From assembly GCA_027022065.1 (NCBI GenBank), contig JALVZS010000174.1, positions 1 to 7,094 on the forward strand: a stretch of DNA of 7,094 nt, written 5' to 3'. Numbering within the stretch: the first letter of the stretch is position 1; every line of letters begins with the position of its first letter. Shown here piece after piece: positions 1-7,094 of the stretch. Made by a program: the position numbers and the translations under genes. This DNA comes from a bacterium (lineage in GTDB: Bacteria; Thermosulfidibacterota; Thermosulfidibacteria; Thermosulfidibacterales; Thermosulfidibacteraceae). A model generated the notes under the pieces. That model had not been told where the DNA came from, ran no database searches, and saw nothing but the letters and a program-made list of their open reading frames with translations.

Positions 1-342
1 GATGGCTGAGAAAAGGTCGTCTATGCTGGAGGTTGCATTGTCCTCTCCGTAAGATATGTTTTCTCCTACCGTGAGATAATTGTATCCTACATATCTTAAT
101 CTGTCCGCAGGAGTTGTACCGGTGTAGCAGGGGTTGTAAGGATTTTCGTAGTGGTCAATAACTTGATTTTTGGCTAGATATACAGCGTGATTCCTTGCGG
201 CTTTATCTATTAACTGGTTTTCTTGAAATGCTTTAAGCCCTGTCAATGTTCTTAATTTGTTGAGGTAAGTTAGCCAGTTTTGGGAGTGACATTTGGATGC
301 TAGTATCAGTATACATATTGTTAGTAAAATAAACCTTCTCAT
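1..342 (-). CDS. Secreted CAP-domain (SCP/PR-1/YkwD-like) protein, N-terminal part, cut by the left edge
   Basis: The reading frame runs from ATG at 342-340 without a stop to position 1, giving 114 residues of an incomplete protein. Residues 1-19 form a basic-hydrophobic export signal (MRRF followed by an ILLTICILILAS core). Cleavage by signal peptidase I near residue 16 or 20 is plausible, and no good lipobox is seen. The rest matches the first half of a CAP domain: an Ala-rich helix ending in AARNHAVYLAKN (48-59), DHYENP (63-68), YTGTTPADRLRYVGY (73-87), VGENISYG (92-99) and SSIDDLFSAI (105-114). His64 and Glu94 sit where the family's conserved pocket His and Glu lie; the later Glu/His residues are off-window. 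CAP proteins are extracytoplasmic and their bacterial roles are mostly unknown. The gene has no Shine-Dalgarno sequence and diverges from the 505-residue gene. Its G+C is about 39%, visibly lower than most of the operon on the right. Confidence 0.85.
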   Translation of the reverse strand, partial: MRRFILLTICILILASKCHSQNWLTYLNKLRTLTGLKAFQENQLIDKAARNHAVYLAKNQVIDHYENPYNPCYTGTTPADRLRYVGYNYLTVGENISYGEDNATSSIDDLFSAI

Positions 343-378
343 GATCTTTAATTTATGTGTTATTGTGCGCCATTGCAA
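343..378 (-). promoter_or_regulatory. Candidate sigma-70-type promoter for the CAP-domain gene
   Basis: On the minus strand TTGCAA (378-373) is followed after exactly 17 bases by TAAATT (355-350), and then after 7 bases by the ATG at 342. Each hexamer matches the sigma-70 consensus at four of six positions. The predicted transcription start falls on or next to the ATG, and no Shine-Dalgarno sequence precedes it, so a leaderless or near-leaderless message is inferred. The -35 hexamer is shared with the divergent promoter. Confidence 0.45.
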
Positions 379-407
379 GCTTAGTCAGTAGCTGGTAGAT
401 TAGAAAT
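373..407 (+). promoter_or_regulatory. Candidate sigma-70-type promoter for the 505-residue secreted protein gene
   Basis: On the plus strand TTGCAA (373-378) is followed after exactly 17 bases by TAGATT (396-401), and then after 6 bases by the ATG at 408. Both hexamers match the consensus at four of six positions. As on the other strand, the predicted start of transcription coincides with the ATG and no ribosome-binding site is visible, which points to leaderless initiation. This is inferred from spacing and motif only. Confidence 0.45.
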
Positions 408-1925
408 ATGAGAAGTTCAAGGCTTATTATTCTATTATGCGGGTTTTTCTGGTTGTGTTCCTCGTGTTTGGGTTTTGACATCTATTCTATGGCTAGGTGC
501 TCTACGAATAGCTGTAAGAACTACGTGCGGGTTGCCTATGATGGAGTAGGGGATCTTTTGTTCTTCCCCTTATTTTATGCAGATTCTGTGGGTAGCTATG
601 CGAGAATTTCTGTGGTGAACACATCCGAAAGGTTTGCGGTGGTGGCGGACGTTGCCGTGAAAGATGCCGTTTGTGCTGAGGTTCTTGCGAGTTTCTATAT
701 ATACCTTTTGCCCAACGATGCCTGGAGTGGCTACATTGTTAAAAATGGGGGAAAGGTTTCGCTTGTCAGCTACGATGATAGTGTGCTGGCTGGTGGGAAG
801 GTAGCTTCTTCCAGTGCTCCTTTTAGTGTGGATTTCTCCAAGCCCAAGAATCCGGCATCTGATACTAGGTTTGGTTATGTTGAGGTTGTGGCTCTGGCGT
901 ATGTAGATACCCACTATGTAAATCCGGGTAATTCAACGGATACTTACAACTATCTTATGACCAGCAATGGATTTACCGAAGAGCACCTGTTTGTTAACTG
1001 GCTTTTTGGTGCAAAGGACACTTACAACGATGTGGCTTATGTGGATGATAATGGGACGAAAAGGTTTTCTGGCATTATCTTTCCCGCTGATGCCCATTCG
1101 GGTTTCTACGATTACAATCCCGTGTTTGTGAAAGGTGTAATAAGTAAAGAACTGGAAGATGGGACTTTATCTGGTTGGGCAGATATTTTTGTCAATGGTT
1201 ACGGAGTGGCATCATATAGAGCTGTAGCTGTTAAGGACTTTGTAATGCTAGGTGATGATGTTGTGACCTTGAATAACAGCCTTAAAGACCTTAGGGGGCA
1301 TTACAAGCCTACTCCTAGTGAGGCTGCGTATTTGGATAATGTGGGTGATGTTAACTTGCTGGATGCAGCTTTGGCGAAGAAAAGAGTAATGTTTCACTAT
1401 ACCAGGTTGCAAGAAATGGTTCCTTTTATGTTTTTGCTCTTCCCCACTAAGCAGATGGCCTACGATCCTACCACGGGCAAGTGCGTGGCGACTGAACACA
1501 CATCGTATGTGTGGCAGGATGACGGGATTTTGGAGGTTCAGGGACTTGACGTAGTGACTATTTCGGATGAAGGGGAGGCAAAGAAGTGCGCCTTCTATCC
1601 ATGTATTTGGGATAATACAGCTCTACTGAGTATAGCAAGAACGGATTTTGGATTTGATCCGTTTCTGTTCTCAAGTGGCTGGTTGGAGGTTCTGTTTGCC
1701 TCGCCGGATAAGGATGTTGTAAAGTTTGCTTTTGCTGATGATAGCAGTAAGATGCAGAAGTGGAGCGAAATAAACGCTTTGCCGGTTATAGCTTTAGCGG
1801 GATATCTTGGAGAAGGTTTTGTGTCCTTGTTCTATCCTTCGTATCGGCTTCCTTGGAATGAGGTCTGTGTTTTTGCAAAAGCCTACGGTGAGGAGTCTGT
1901 CTTTCACACCTTGCCTTACCGCTAA
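408..1925 (+). CDS. Secreted or surface protein of unknown function (505 aa)
   Basis: I do not recognise a named family. Residues 1-22 are a Sec-type signal peptide (MRSSR, hydrophobic core LIILLCGFFWL, likely cleavage after SSCLG). Cys17 and Cys20 lack a proper lipobox, so a lipoprotein is unlikely. The mature part looks beta-rich, aromatic and acidic, with no further obvious membrane span. The clearest block is residues 48-125: GDLLFFPLFYA, then VVNTS, then YIYLLPNDAWSGYI, then SYDDSV. From memory, similar blocks occur in large uncharacterised secreted proteins of other bacteria, but I could not search. A FGYVEVVALAYVD stretch (155-167) is faintly echoed by GWLEVLFASPD (424-434). Cysteines at 31, 36, 89, 359, 394, 399 and 487 could form disulfides outside the cytoplasm. 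The ATG at 408 is chosen because it begins the signal peptide; no Shine-Dalgarno precedes it. The TAA overlaps the stop of the converging permease gene. Confidence 0.85.
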   Translation: MRSSRLIILLCGFFWLCSSCLGFDIYSMARCSTNSCKNYVRVAYDGVGDLLFFPLFYADSVGSYARISVVNTSERFAVVADVAVKDAVCAEVLASFYIYLLPNDAWSGYIVKNGGKVSLVSYDDSVLAGGKVASSSAPFSVDFSKPKNPASDTRFGYVEVVALAYVDTHYVNPGNSTDTYNYLMTSNGFTEEHLFVNWLFGAKDTYNDVAYVDDNGTKRFSGIIFPADAHSGFYDYNPVFVKGVISKELEDGTLSGWADIFVNGYGVASYRAVAVKDFVMLGDDVVTLNNSLKDLRGHYKPTPSEAAYLDNVGDVNLLDAALAKKRVMFHYTRLQEMVPFMFLLFPTKQMAYDPTTGKCVATEHTSYVWQDDGILEVQGLDVVTISDEGEAKKCAFYPCIWDNTALLSIARTDFGFDPFLFSSGWLEVLFASPDKDVVKFAFADDSSKMQKWSEINALPVIALAGYLGEGFVSLFYPSYRLPWNEVCVFAKAYGEESVFHTLPYR

Positions 1926-2740
1926 AGCACGTCTGGGAAACCGTCTTTTAGGTAGCGGAAGATTTTGGTTCCTATCATGAAGGCTAGAATTGATGTGAGT
2001 GCTATCAGAGAAATTCGCTCCACGCTGACAGGTTGGCCGTTGAGCATCAGCTCTCTGTAGGCACTTAGTATAGTGTTCCAGGGGTTTAGGTTGAGCAAGA
2101 GCCTGAACTTCTGGGGTATCATTGTTGGGGGGTAGACTATGGGCGTTATGTAGAACCATACCTGAAGCAGTATGGGCAGTATCTGTATGGTGTCCCTGAG
2201 GTATACGGATATGGATGAGACTATGGCTCCTAGTCCTAAGGAGAAAACAATCAGCATGAGGTGGACTAGGGCGATTTCTGAGAGGACAAGCGGTATTGTG
2301 TGAAGGATCAGTATCTTGTCCAGCCAAAGTTTGGTAAGACAATACGCGACTAGCAAGATGAAAGGGATCAGGTATATCAGGGAAATTGCTAGAGAAATTC
2401 CTACAATGATGGTCCCTGGGGGGAAGTAGACTTTCTTTATTGATTCTCTATTTTCTATCATAGCTGTGGAGCTTCTCATTATTGCTTCTTGGAACTGAGC
2501 CCATGGGATAAATCCTGTGAGCATGAAGAGGGTAAAAGAGGATGTTGAGTAGATCCTGCCTATTTTTACTTTCAGAACCAGGGAGAACAAAAAGATGAAA
2601 ATTGCTGCCATCATTATGGGCTGTGCGAAGCTCCAGAAGATACCGCCTATGCTTCCTGCTATGCGGAACTTTATCTCTCTTTTCATGAAGTAGAGGGAGA
2701 GGTTTAGAAAGAGTCTGTATTTATTCAGAAAAGCTCTCAT
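1922..2740 (-). CDS. ABC-2 type permease, polysaccharide/glycan exporter family (Wzm/KpsM/TagG-like)
   Basis: This is a complete inner-membrane permease of 272 residues, the usual length for the family, with about six membrane segments (roughly 33-57, 69-84, 110-135, 148-175, 183-203 and 243-262). Family landmarks appear in order: an amphipathic lead-in with KREIKFRIAGS (20-30), GIFWSFAQP (33-41), GFIPWAQFQEAI (76-87), ENRESIKKVYFPPG (96-109), YLRDTIQILPILLQVWFYITP (180-200, quoted here in outline), NPWNTILSAYRELML (219-233) and the terminal GFPDVL. Such permeases pair with a Wzt/KpsT-type ATPase to export O-antigen, capsule or teichoic-acid-like polymers; no ATPase gene is present here. The ATG at 2740 lies 20 bases inside the preceding pseudopilin gene and has no visible Shine-Dalgarno, so translation is probably coupled. 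A second ATG at 2686 would remove the conserved amphipathic lead-in. The TAG stop overlaps the convergent gene's TAA. The substrate cannot be inferred. Confidence 0.88.
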   Translation of the reverse strand: MRAFLNKYRLFLNLSLYFMKREIKFRIAGSIGGIFWSFAQPIMMAAIFIFLFSLVLKVKIGRIYSTSSFTLFMLTGFIPWAQFQEAIMRSSTAMIENRESIKKVYFPPGTIIVGISLAISLIYLIPFILLVAYCLTKLWLDKILILHTIPLVLSEIALVHLMLIVFSLGLGAIVSSISVYLRDTIQILPILLQVWFYITPIVYPPTMIPQKFRLLLNLNPWNTILSAYRELMLNGQPVSVERISLIALTSILAFMIGTKIFRYLKDGFPDVL

Positions 2741-3173
2741 TTGTGCTGTTTGAGAAGGGGTTGTAAGACAGATTTATCGTGTAGGAAATGTTTTTGTAAG
2801 AGATAGTGAGTTCTAGAGGTGTGTTCTGGCAGGGAAGGGGTATGGTTTCGTTTTCGCATATCTCTACGGGCTCAGTGTTGTTGGTGTTCAGGTAGCATCT
2901 TGTCTTTGAAGGAAACTTAACTTCCCATCTTTTACTTCCCGATACAAGCGTTATCTTGCGGCAGTTCGCCTCTATTGATATGGAGCTGTCCTTGTTGTCT
3001 ACAATGCTTTCCATGCAGAGGTTGCTTATAAGCATTCTTATGAACAGCACCCTTCTTCTTATCTGATTAACCTCTATGCTTCTTATCCACCTGAGGGAGA
3101 TGGAGGTTACCAGGGACAGTATTATCAGCACCACAAGCAATTCTATTAAGGTGAAGCCGTTATTTGCTTTCAT
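2721..3173 (-). CDS. Type II secretion minor pseudopilin, GspH-like
   Basis: Starting at the ATG at 3173, the 150-residue product opens with a classic class III signal: the leader MKANNG, then FTLIELLVVLIILSLV. The prepilin peptidase would cut after Gly6 and methylate Phe7, and the Glu at mature position 5 is present. Residues 9-28 form the hydrophobic assembly helix, and the remainder would be a small periplasmic beta domain. Length and a single short globular domain suit a minor pseudopilin such as GspH, but GspI or another subtype is possible. Five cysteines (53, 71, 93, 106, 115) are unusual for this size and suggest disulfides. The frame extends upstream to a TTG at 3209, but this would give an over-long leader, so the ATG is preferred. 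The gene overlaps the end of gspD by 14 bases with only a poor ribosome site, which suggests translational coupling. Confidence 0.85.
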   Translation of the reverse strand: MKANNGFTLIELLVVLIILSLVTSISLRWIRSIEVNQIRRRVLFIRMLISNLCMESIVDNKDSSISIEANCRKITLVSGSKRWEVKFPSKTRCYLNTNNTEPVEICENETIPLPCQNTPLELTISYKNISYTINLSYNPFSNSTNESFSE

Positions 3174-5139
3174 GCTGCTTTTTGATGAGCTTCTTAAGCT
3201 TTTGCTCAAACATGCTGGAGATGATGTCTGCCTGCTTGACAGAGGTTATTACGTGGGGGGTTATCATGACTATAAGCTCTGTACGGGACCTTTCTGTGGA
3301 TTCGTAGGAGAAGAGCTTTCCCAAAAGTGGGATGTCTCCCAGAAGGGGAACCTTCTTTTTAACGGTGTTGTTCCTTCTGTCTATTATTCCCCCCAGTATA
3401 ATGGTGTGCTCGTCTTGGACCATTAGAGTGGTTTTAATCTTCCTCGTGAGGATGACAGGTGAGTCTATTCCTGACACCGTGTTCTTCTCCGCCGAGCTGC
3501 TTTCCTGGCTTATTTCCAGGGTTACGAAGCCCTCTTCGCTTATGTGGGGTTTCACCCTGAGTATTATACCCACGTCCCTATACTCTATCCTTCTGTCTAT
3601 GGCTGCTGTTCCCTGGATCTGTATGGAGCCTACTGTTTCCGTGGTTAGTATTGGAACCTCCTTACCTACCTCAATGGAGGCTTCCTGGTTGTCTCTTACT
3701 AATATGTGCGGTGAGGAGAGCACAGTTAGATTCGTCTTGGTTGCGAGGAAATAGAGGAAGTTCCAGTAATTGTCCGGGTTTATCCCGTAGTAGGTTAGTC
3801 CGAAGAGCTTTTCTCTGCTTCCTGCAAGCCCGTAGCTTACGGTAGCCTGGGCGGTGTACTTATTACCCTTGACTTTAAGCCACCACTCTATTCCGTTTTC
3901 AAACTGTTTGTCTAGTGTTATTTCTGCTATTAGCACCTCTATTAGGACCTGTCTGGGCATAACATCCACGGATGCGATGATGGGCTTTATTCTGTCGTAG
4001 TCTTCCTGGGTTGCCTGGATTATTAAGGCATTGTTCACCTCATCGGGAACGATAACTACGTTGGATGTGACGATGACAGGGGTTTTTGTCTTCTGGCCTT
4101 TCTTGGGCTTTGCCTCTATAGCTCCTCTGCCGGAGAGGAGCTCCTTGAGGATCTTTGCCAGCTTGTCAACTTTTACGTACTGAACCTTATATATGTAGAT
4201 ATTTTTCTTTTCCTTGTTCTGGGCGGAGTCCATGATTTTAACTAGATCCGTCACGCGGTTCATGAGCTCAAGGGATGAGGTTACGGCAACGAGAAAGCTT
4301 AGCCTGTCTATAGGTATTAGGGAGTAGTTCATGGGGGAGATTTTCATTGCTCTAAGTATTTGTGTTATGTTCTTGCTTACATCGCTGGGTTCTGAGTTGT
4401 TCAGCTTGAAAATCTTTATGTTGTTTCCGGCCATGGTTTCTGTGTCTATTAGTTTTATGAGCCTTCTTATGCTTATCACATTGTGCCGCTTGTCTATTAT
4501 TAGGAGGATGTTTCTTTCCACTATCTTGGCACGGCCCTCCTGGCTAAGGAGTTCAAATGCCACCTGGTAGGCGCTTGCTGCCCCTATGTACTTGGGCTTG
4601 TATATCCAGAAGGCTGCTTCCCTGCTTAGGGAGAATCTTGGATAGCTTCTGGCCCTTTTAACTATTATGCTTTTGCCCTGGCGAATTACTGTAAGTCCTT
4701 GGTTGTTCAGTATCTGCTTAACTATGTTTAGCAGTTCGTCTTCGTAGAAGCTCCCGTCTAGTATAACTGTGATGTTTCCTGATATTTTTGTTTCAATCAC
4801 AACATTTTTGTGTAGGGTGTTTTTGAGTACATTTATTATAAAGTCGTAGGTGGGAATGTTGTCGTAGGCCACAGACAGCTTGTAAACTTTACCCCTGTAG
4901 GATCTCGCTCCCCCGTATACGATGTCTATTTCCTTTCCGCTTGAGGAGTAGACAACTGCGGTTTTTTTCTGTTGCGTTTGCTTGGTCACCTCTATCTTTT
5001 TCTCTTTGCCTTGGGCCTTTTTCTTGAGAACCTTAGGAGGTATAACGTGGACCCTTTCGGGGGCTAGTGCAAACTTACCGCCAGAGCAGGATGCGAGTGC
5101 TAGCCCCGCTGTGATTAAAAGAAGCAGGAACTTCCTCAT
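3160..5139 (-). CDS. gspD: Type II secretion system secretin GspD, apparent lipoprotein
   Basis: This 659-residue protein is the outer-membrane channel of a T2SS. Residues 1-17 are a lipoprotein signal with lipobox LASC, so Cys18 would be acylated. A Lys/Gln-rich linker (about 40-60) precedes the periplasmic domains: N0 (about 84-163), N1 (184-233), N2 (240-304) and N3 (313-393). N3 contains a Lys-rich loop at 339-353. The secretin barrel domain follows (about 395-630), with LIEVLIAEI, VRDNQEASIEVGKEVPILT, and the signature VPLLGDIPLLGKLFSYE then RTELIVMITPHVI (597-630). Only about 27 residues follow, leaving no sizeable pilotin-binding S domain. The frame continues upstream to a TTG at 5160, but the ATG at 5139 is the true start: it begins the signal peptide, follows AAGGAG by 7 bases, and forms an ATGA overlap with the gspM stop. 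Type IV pilus PilQ is less likely because no AMIN domain is seen. Confidence 0.95.
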   Translation of the reverse strand: MRKFLLLLITAGLALASCSGGKFALAPERVHVIPPKVLKKKAQGKEKKIEVTKQTQQKKTAVVYSSSGKEIDIVYGGARSYRGKVYKLSVAYDNIPTYDFIINVLKNTLHKNVVIETKISGNITVILDGSFYEDELLNIVKQILNNQGLTVIRQGKSIIVKRARSYPRFSLSREAAFWIYKPKYIGAASAYQVAFELLSQEGRAKIVERNILLIIDKRHNVISIRRLIKLIDTETMAGNNIKIFKLNNSEPSDVSKNITQILRAMKISPMNYSLIPIDRLSFLVAVTSSLELMNRVTDLVKIMDSAQNKEKKNIYIYKVQYVKVDKLAKILKELLSGRGAIEAKPKKGQKTKTPVIVTSNVVIVPDEVNNALIIQATQEDYDRIKPIIASVDVMPRQVLIEVLIAEITLDKQFENGIEWWLKVKGNKYTAQATVSYGLAGSREKLFGLTYYGINPDNYWNFLYFLATKTNLTVLSSPHILVRDNQEASIEVGKEVPILTTETVGSIQIQGTAAIDRRIEYRDVGIILRVKPHISEEGFVTLEISQESSSAEKNTVSGIDSPVILTRKIKTTLMVQDEHTIILGGIIDRRNNTVKKKVPLLGDIPLLGKLFSYESTERSRTELIVMITPHVITSVKQADIISSMFEQKLKKLIKKQHESK

Positions 5140-5741
5140 GACTCCGCTCCTTCCTTCCAAATAATGGACATTCTGAAGAAGGCACAGAGGGTGACGTTTT
5201 TTTGGCGCCTATAGTAGCGCTCTATATATACTGAAGCCTCCTGGATATACATGCCGAAGGACTTAGCAACCTGTTCAAAGTCTTCAATGAACCTTATCAC
5301 GTTGGGCGTAGGTCCTTTCACTCTGAACATCATTCTGGTTTTCTTTATGTGGTCATATATGGTTGTTGTGGTTGATATGCTGGTGTCGCTCAAGGTTAGA
5401 TTGTGTCTTTTGCACACCTCGTTCAGTAAGGTTTGAACCTTGGCAAATATCAAGGCATCAGACTGGGCGGTCATCCACTTGCTGCTTATGCTTTTTAGCT
5501 GTGATTGAAGCTTTATCAGCTCTTTTTCCACCTCTTGCTTCTGCTTTGCGTACCTTTCCAGCCTTTTTAGGCTGAACTGAAGATCGGAAATGGATTTAGA
5601 TACTTGAACTTTTTGTGTATAAAGATAGATGTCTAGAAAGATTAAAACTAAGCACAAGGCGTATACGGTTACAACTGTTTTGTTTTCCAGCAGAAGGTTA
5701 ATGTACGGCTGGATGTTTTTGGGTATCTTATTAATGCTCAA
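5136..5741 (-). CDS. gspM: Type II secretion inner-membrane platform protein, GspM/PilO-like
   Basis: The 201-residue product has the layout of GspM and its type IV pilus counterpart PilO: a short cytoplasmic tail (1-20), one membrane helix (about 22-41, TVVTVYALCLVLIFLDIYLY), a charged coiled coil (about 47-88) and a small alpha/beta ferredoxin-like domain (about 93-195). The VKGPTPNVIRFIEDFEQV segment (141-158) is typical of the latter. In the T2SS it partners GspL in the inner membrane and is thought to transmit the motor's action to the pseudopilus and secretin. Identification rests on architecture and on position between gspL and gspD, because sequence conservation in this family is low. 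The start is a TTG at 5741 supported by GGAG 8 bases upstream and by a TTGA overlap with the gspL stop. Its own TGA overlaps the gspD start as ATGA. Confidence 0.82.
   Translation of the reverse strand: MSINKIPKNIQPYINLLLENKTVVTVYALCLVLIFLDIYLYTQKVQVSKSISDLQFSLKRLERYAKQKQEVEKELIKLQSQLKSISSKWMTAQSDALIFAKVQTLLNEVCKRHNLTLSDTSISTTTTIYDHIKKTRMMFRVKGPTPNVIRFIEDFEQVAKSFGMYIQEASVYIERYYRRQKNVTLCAFFRMSIIWKEGAES
5147..5152 (-). promoter_or_regulatory. Ribosome-binding site of gspD
   Basis: AAGGAG on the minus strand lies 7 bases before the ATG at 5139 and fixes that codon, not the upstream TTG at 5160, as the start. It is the strongest ribosome site in the window and lies within the end of gspM. Confidence 0.8.
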
Positions 5742-6796
5742 TATTCCAGCTCCATGGATACTGTGAATGTTTCCATGTCCTTAAACGGACCAAATCTCCT
5801 TTTGTACGGTGTAGCTTCTATCTTGAGATTCTTTACATACTTGGACTTCCCCAGTTTTTCTATTACCTGGGAAGCCGAAGTGGAATAACCCATGAGCCTA
5901 ACCTTTTTGCCGGTTATGTAAAGCCTTCCTATGAGTGTGCCTTTGGGAAGCACGTCTGATATCCTGGCAATTGCCCTTATGAGGCTGATGCCTTTTGTGT
6001 TTTTACTTATTAAATCAAGCTGCTGCTGTAGCTTTTTCTTTTCTTCCTTGAGCTTGGAGAGCTCATTGACTACCTTCATGTAGCTTTTCTGCTTCCTCTG
6101 CAGCAGGGACAGCCTTTTCTTTTCAGCGTTTAGACTGGTCAGCATAGAGGCAAACAGGGCAGAAAGCCCTATCAAAAGGAGTATTCCAACGGCTAGAGGG
6201 ATGTTGAGCCCCCTCTTTGCCTTTTTGGTTTTTACTTTAAATAGCAAAAGAGGAGGAGAGGAGAGAGTGGATATGTCAGATAGGGCAAACTCCTTAGCTT
6301 CTTTTCCCAGGACGCTTCTGACTTTTTCCCAGTGGGAGTGGGAAACGAAGAAGATGTTTCTCACTTCTCCACCTTCTATCTCGGCTGCTTCAACACCACT
6401 TTCCCACCTTGTCCATATTACTCCTTGCTCCATGGAGCACTTTTCCATGTAGGCCAGCGTTGCTAGTGTTACCCCTCTTACTGAAAGATCCATAGCGGCT
6501 GCCTGCTGTTCTATTTCGGCCAACACGCTGCTTTTTACAGCTATTATCAGCACCTCCACCTTTTCGCTTTCTTCTTCCACTATGAGGTGGGAAGCCTTCA
6601 GGTCTTCCTCGCCGAATATGCGCTCTGCCTGATACTGGACGGCTTCATTGCCGTTTTCCACAGCTACCTTTGGCATGCTGATTTTGTCCACATAGAGGTT
6701 TTCTCTGGGAATGACCACTATGTATTCGGACACAGGCTCCGAGGAAAGCACCTTTTCCAGTTTTCCATCTCTGTACACCAAAAGACCTATTTTCAC
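5738..6796 (-). CDS. gspL: Type II secretion inner-membrane platform protein, GspL-like (PilM-PilN-type fusion)
   Basis: The 352-residue product begins VKIGLLVYRDGKLEKV, typical of the cytoplasmic actin-like fold of GspL/PilM. This domain spans about 1-190 and includes IVVIPRENLYVDKISMP (26-42), a docking region for the secretion ATPase GspE in known systems. One membrane helix follows (about 197-219), then a charged coiled coil (221-265) and a periplasmic ferredoxin-like domain (269-352) with the PilN-like pattern ISDVLPKGTLIGRLYI, VRLMGYS and ETFTVSMEL. The cytoplasmic part is somewhat shorter than in well-studied GspL proteins. The open frame extends to a GTG at 6841, but the GTG at 6796 is preferred: it forms a GTGA overlap with the preceding stop, has AGGAG 10 bases upstream, and places the first beta strand at the N-terminus. 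A type IV pilus PilN relative is the main alternative. Confidence 0.85.
   Translation of the reverse strand: MKIGLLVYRDGKLEKVLSSEPVSEYIVVIPRENLYVDKISMPKVAVENGNEAVQYQAERIFGEEDLKASHLIVEEESEKVEVLIIAVKSSVLAEIEQQAAAMDLSVRGVTLATLAYMEKCSMEQGVIWTRWESGVEAAEIEGGEVRNIFFVSHSHWEKVRSVLGKEAKEFALSDISTLSSPPLLLFKVKTKKAKRGLNIPLAVGILLLIGLSALFASMLTSLNAEKKRLSLLQRKQKSYMKVVNELSKLKEEKKKLQQQLDLISKNTKGISLIRAIARISDVLPKGTLIGRLYITGKKVRLMGYSTSASQVIEKLGKSKYVKNLKIEATPYKRRFGPFKDMETFTVSMELEY
5750..5753 (-). promoter_or_regulatory. Ribosome-binding site of gspM (TTG start)
   Basis: GGAG on the minus strand lies 8 bases before the TTG at 5741. Together with the TTGA stop/start overlap it supports this rare start codon; no ATG or GTG sits in a comparable position. 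Confidence 0.6.
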
Positions 6797-7094
6797 TCCT
6801 TTCTCTCTCCTAGGGTTATTTTGACTATCACGGAAGGACACTTGGGACAGTCTGAGAAGGTCAGCTTTTCTACATCCGCTTCGTAGCTTTCCTCTGTGGT
6901 TTCTCCTGTTCCGTTGAGCACCTCTATGGTCAAGGTTTCCCTATCCTTTTTGATGTCAATCTTGGGAGTGCCGTAGGTGGTGTCTCTTGTGGCTGCCCAG
7001 AAGTATCCGTACATCAGCCTACCCACATTTTCCTGCAGGCTTTGTAGGCGGAAGAGCCTTTGGGATGATGTGGCAAAGATGGTAGAGGCTACTG
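6793..7094 (-). CDS. C-terminal part of a type II secretion minor pseudopilin, GspJ-like, cut by the right edge
   Basis: The frame is open from the right edge (first full codon at 7092) to TGA at 6795-6793, giving 100 visible residues. A GTG at 7026 is probably an internal valine, since coding continues upstream without a stop (VASTIFATSSQRLFRLQ and on). The visible part resembles the globular domain of GspJ/PilW-type pseudopilins: an amphipathic helix with aromatic residues (ENVGRLMYGYFWAATRD), beta strands (LTIEVLNG), then a closing VEKLTFSD and PSVIVKITLGERKE. This resembles the usual GspJ ending, a strand, then Pro, then a final strand. A CPKC pair near the end could form a disulfide or bind metal. 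The N-terminal prepilin signal is off-window, so the subtype is uncertain. Its stop overlaps the gspL start, placing it as the upstream member of the same operon. Confidence 0.6.
   Translation of the reverse strand, partial: VASTIFATSSQRLFRLQSLQENVGRLMYGYFWAATRDTTYGTPKIDIKKDRETLTIEVLNGTGETTEESYEADVEKLTFSDCPKCPSVIVKITLGERKE
6807..6811 (-). promoter_or_regulatory. Ribosome-binding site of gspL (GTG start)
   Basis: AGGAG on the minus strand lies 10 bases before the GTG at 6796. Combined with the GTGA overlap, it favours this start over the GTG 45 bases upstream. The spacing is at the long end of normal. Confidence 0.5.

Follow-up and report, generated by a model that had tools for sequence, protein, structure and literature searches.

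A compact divergent promoter layout with a candidate shared -35 hexamer between two predicted near-leaderless genes

Divergent promoters standing back to back between neighbouring genes are a classical arrangement. More recently, bidirectional promoters have been described in which one symmetric -10 element serves both directions and the transcription starts lie 7-25 bp apart, most often 18 (PMC12825309, PMC10268837), while leaderless bacterial genes have been found to carry, as their signature, a TAnnnT hexamer some 12 bp ahead of the start codon (PMC3160421). Here we describe a short divergent gap in a window of 7,094 nucleotides, the whole stretch of DNA analysed, that resembles each of these in part. 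On balance its letters favour, though not strongly, reading it as a compact back-to-back divergent sigma-70-type promoter with one shared -35 hexamer and two leaderless or near-leaderless mRNAs.

The divergent gap and its flanking genes

The features of the gap, its two genes and a second site elsewhere in the genome are collected in Table 1. Read rightward, TTGCAA is followed by 17 nt (379-395), TAGATT, 6 nt (AGAAAT) and the ATG at 408; read leftward, it is followed by 17 nt (372-356), TAAATT (355-350), 7 nt (AAAGATC) and the ATG at 342. Letter by letter, these elements and distances are exactly those given by an earlier sequence-only reading, which had also reported that both starts lack a Shine-Dalgarno (SD) sequence; indeed, no AGGA, GGAG or GAGG core is present upstream of either ATG. 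Because an in-frame TAG occupies 396-398, position 408 is the earliest possible start of the right-hand gene. The left-hand frame stays open farther upstream, to a TTG within the palindrome, and the ATG at 342 opens a typical signal peptide. Common to both gene starts is ATGAGAAG, which covers the Met-Arg codons and runs just into the codon after them; it reflects the Met-Arg opening of two signal-peptide n-regions, with nothing more to explain.

Table 1. Coordinates of the divergent gap, its proposed promoter elements, the flanking genes and the second site
Feature	Position	Strand	Remarks
Divergent intergenic gap	343..407		65 bp; TTGCAA central
TTGCAA, self-complementary, proposed shared -35	373..378	both	4/6 to TTGACA on each strand
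TAGATT, proposed -10 of right-hand gene	396..401	+	4/6 to TATAAT
TAAATT, proposed -10 of left-hand gene	350..355	-	4/6 to TATAAT
CAP/SCP-domain secreted protein	1..342	-	PF00188, E 5.9e-06; 3' end outside window; predicted near-leaderless
505-aa orphan, N-terminal signal-like segment	408..1925	+	no SD; predicted near-leaderless start
Second mirror site, TTGCAA 17/17	C190:12222-12273	both	histidine-kinase gene vs tRNA-Thr; gap L098 12213-12283

The right-hand gene product has no match in Pfam, NCBIfam, PDB sequences, the genome-contig and viral-contig scans or 40 genomes, and structure prediction without an alignment reached a pLDDT of 32. Positions 1922-7094 hold, on the minus strand, a type II secretion-like operon encoding PilN/GspL-like and GspM-like proteins, a GspD secretin (TIGR02517, E 3.1e-103), a pseudopilin carrying the N-methylation motif and an ABC-2/KpsM-like permease. 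The permease gene converges upon the orphan gene with an overlap of a few bases, and its own ATG, at 2740 (-), also lacks an SD sequence, though it lies inside an operon. Relatives of the secretin were absent from the genome-contig scan. Given its position beside a secretion operon and the lack of relatives in the searches above, the orphan is possibly a substrate or a lineage-specific surface protein.

Promoter match, chance expectation and a second site

The match to the sigma-70 consensus is weak, amounting to 8/12 in each direction (4/6 + 4/6), with 17-bp spacers (within the 16-18 range) and the conserved A2 and T6 of the -10 hexamer present on both sides; TTGCAA-N17 is the top-scoring promoter pair in each direction of the gap. 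A default promoter scan (at least 9/12) did not report the shared-hexamer pair and found no excess of promoters in the window, with 11 as against 10.0 in shuffles. Moreover, pairs scoring at least 8/12 are equally frequent antisense and sense (63 vs 63) in 179 upstream regions of the genome sample, and the single 8/12 promoters of this gap do not rise above the genome background.

The arrangement as a whole was evaluated in dinucleotide shuffles of the gap. Specifically, a strict version, comprising a palindromic -35 of at least 4/6 and, on both sides, a -10 of at least 4/6 with A2 and T6, a spacer of 16-18 bp and a distance of 4-9 nt to the start, was present in 14 of 60,000 shuffles (2.3e-4 per gap, a post hoc figure), while a looser version admitting any shared hexamer occurred in 0.3% of shuffled gaps, likewise post hoc. 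An 805-kb sample contains 88 divergent gaps, which puts the genome total at roughly 170, and over that number chance would be expected to yield about 0.04 strict and 0.5 loose cases; being post hoc, these chance statistics are of moderate strength. When position is left free, mirror sites with a -35-like palindrome number 2 genome-wide as against 2.0 in shuffled sequence.

A genome search for the one-sided pattern TTGCAA-N16-18-TAnnnT-N5-8-ATG returned five places, two of which are the pair in the window. At C190:12213-12250, TTGCAA-N17-TATATT-N6-ATG precedes a histidine-kinase gene without an SD sequence, encoding a 693-aa GAF/HisKA/receiver protein. In the opposite direction the same TTGCAA is followed by 17 nt, TATAAA, 9 nt and a divergent tRNA-Thr(CGT) gene (12283-12356). 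Since the search pattern was one-sided, the second side at C190 constitutes a partial replication, and we estimate the probability of its occurring by chance at a few per cent. The exact pattern W...TA-N17-TTGCAA-N17-TA...W occurs at two places only in 1.57 Mb, the window and C190, and TTGCAA-N17 scores highest of all promoter pairs in both gaps, whichever way they are read. Among ten intergenic mirror sites in the 805-kb sample (all 64 palindromes, spacers 10-25), these two are the only ones with a spacer of 16-18, and both have TTGCAA and 17.

Several further candidates were set aside. A one-sided match in contig C163 lies within coding sequence. At C208:3284 (L161), AATTGCAATT stands between TAAATT (16 bp) and TATAAT (18 bp), and this 16/18 mirror was rejected because it is AT-rich and the sequence to its right contains no convincing gene. 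A tRNA-Trp gene with TTGCAA at its -35 position was dropped as support, the hexamer falling inside an rpmG-like reading frame just upstream.

With regard to conservation, the exact TTGCAA 17/17 pattern is absent from eight genomes of the same order, and no tRNA gene stands beside the nearest histidine-kinase homologues in the loci compared, so conservation of the second site does not extend to those loci. Over 240 further genomes, TTGCAA mirrors number 288 at spacer 17 and 217 at spacer 14, the single, codon-phase-matched control spacer (signed-rank p 0.001), and the mirror pattern is present somewhere in half of 241 genomes. The spacer-17 excess is small and compatible with some true promoters among mostly chance sites; one-sided promoters would also add to it.

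Promoters and translation starts in the host genome

The host genome relies mostly on SD sequences and leaders of about 30-50 nt: in the genome sample, strong SD sequences lie at -12 to -8, and good promoters are located 29-47 nt upstream of SD-bearing starts. Its promoter grammar is TTGACA-N16-18-TAnnnT, the -35 consensus TTGACA being found 8 times with strong -10s where 1.25 were expected, while TTGCAA stands 16-18 bp before strong -10s twice in the genome sample and is not clearly enriched. These direct counts were used instead of unsupervised EM for -35 and -10 elements, which in 182 upstream regions recovered only SD-like and purine motifs. The assembly yielded no 16S rRNA.

TAnnnT at -12 is present in four weak-SD first genes, two of them already used as evidence above, where about one is expected, and leaderless genes therefore look rare in this genome. 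Both genes flanking the gap have the TA-led layout, with hexamers beginning at -12 and -13 and no SD sequence, and would thus be TA-led exceptions in an SD-using genome.

Proposed mechanism and alternative explanations

From this layout we infer promoter activity in both directions. The palindromic TTGCAA would serve both strands as the -35 hexamer of a housekeeping promoter, with RNA polymerase taking one orientation per binding event and melting either TAGATT or TAAATT. Transcription is predicted to start at about 407-408 (right) and 342-343 (left), so that both mRNAs would begin at, or a few bases from, the AUG and would be translated without an SD sequence. The shared -35 and the leaderless starts, both proposed by the sequence-only reading, are moderately supported by the second site, by the best-scoring pairs and by the missing SD sequences in an SD-using genome; a further proposal of that reading, that the two genes form a mutually exclusive switch, fared otherwise.

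An RNA polymerase footprint extends from about -55 to +20. With predicted starts about 66 bp apart, footprints would overlap, and binding would consequently be exclusive per event; one -35 cannot hold two polymerases together, and steric exclusion at bidirectional promoters has been stated (PMC12825309). That such geometry makes the two genes mutually exclusive is nonetheless very improbable. In tests of five bidirectional promoters of E. coli, basal activity proved insufficient for competition, which arose only after one direction had been strongly raised (Warman et al., 2026, PMC12825309). No regulator gene is adjacent or lies elsewhere in the window, no operator longer than 6 bp is seen, and the locus offers no feedback; the proposed switch is accordingly unsupported. 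Given that a polymerase would be gone within seconds and that weak promoters would be mostly empty, both genes should be expressible in the same cell, and the two directions would be expected to interfere only under strong activation of one of them.

It is quite possible, by contrast, that the symmetry is fortuitous, the real promoter or promoters lying elsewhere or on one side only and the SD-less genes being weakly and ordinarily translated. The background frequency of 8/12 matches, the shuffled rate of -35-like palindromic mirror sites, a gene pair without relatives in the genomes searched and the wide occurrence of TTGCAA mirrors elsewhere all agree with such an explanation, whereas it accounts poorly for a position flush with both start codons, which is rare, and for the recurrence of the mirror, identically spaced, in another intergenic gap of this genome, beside a tRNA whose start fits. 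TTGCAA might also be the operator of a dimeric regulator and not a -35 hexamer, being palindromic and lengthened to ATTGCAAT or AATTGCAATT at the two other intergenic sites. We regard this as improbable: the palindrome in the window is just 6 bp, and the distance of 17 bp from TTGCAA to a -10-like hexamer, seen on either side of each of two sites, is expected of a -35 but not of an operator. Returning to the shared -35, the lineage may hold a small class of promoters in which a palindromic TTGCAA serves two transcription units, protein genes among them being leaderless, and in which the whole regulatory gap, as in the window and between the histidine-kinase and tRNA-Thr genes, forms one polymerase-sized symmetric module; this extension is tentative and rather unlikely.

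Taken together, the arrangement is an economical, essentially ordinary promoter layout of known kind. Like back-to-back divergent promoters, it has two candidate sigma-70 promoters packed into a short stretch between outward genes, here 65 bp with TTGCAA shared by the best pairs, and in sequence layout it belongs with them; in the classical form, however, the -35s lie side by side, while here they would coincide in one palindrome. As in TA-led leaderless genes (PMC3160421), TAnnnT lies about 12 bp upstream of a start without an SD sequence, but both divergent partners carry the hexamer, and genes of this kind look rare in the genome. If real, the locus would test the survival of leaderless genes in an SD-using bacterium and provide a simple natural test of two-polymerase competition at one shared contact. 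With the bidirectional promoters of Warman, Grainger and colleagues it would have in common one symmetric core element, two polymerase orientations and exclusive binding per event, yet it falls outside their definition, the proposed shared element being the -35 instead of the -10 and the predicted starts lying about 66 bp apart instead of 7-25; if real, it would represent a minimal divergent promoter and do with the -35 what that recently described class does with the -10.
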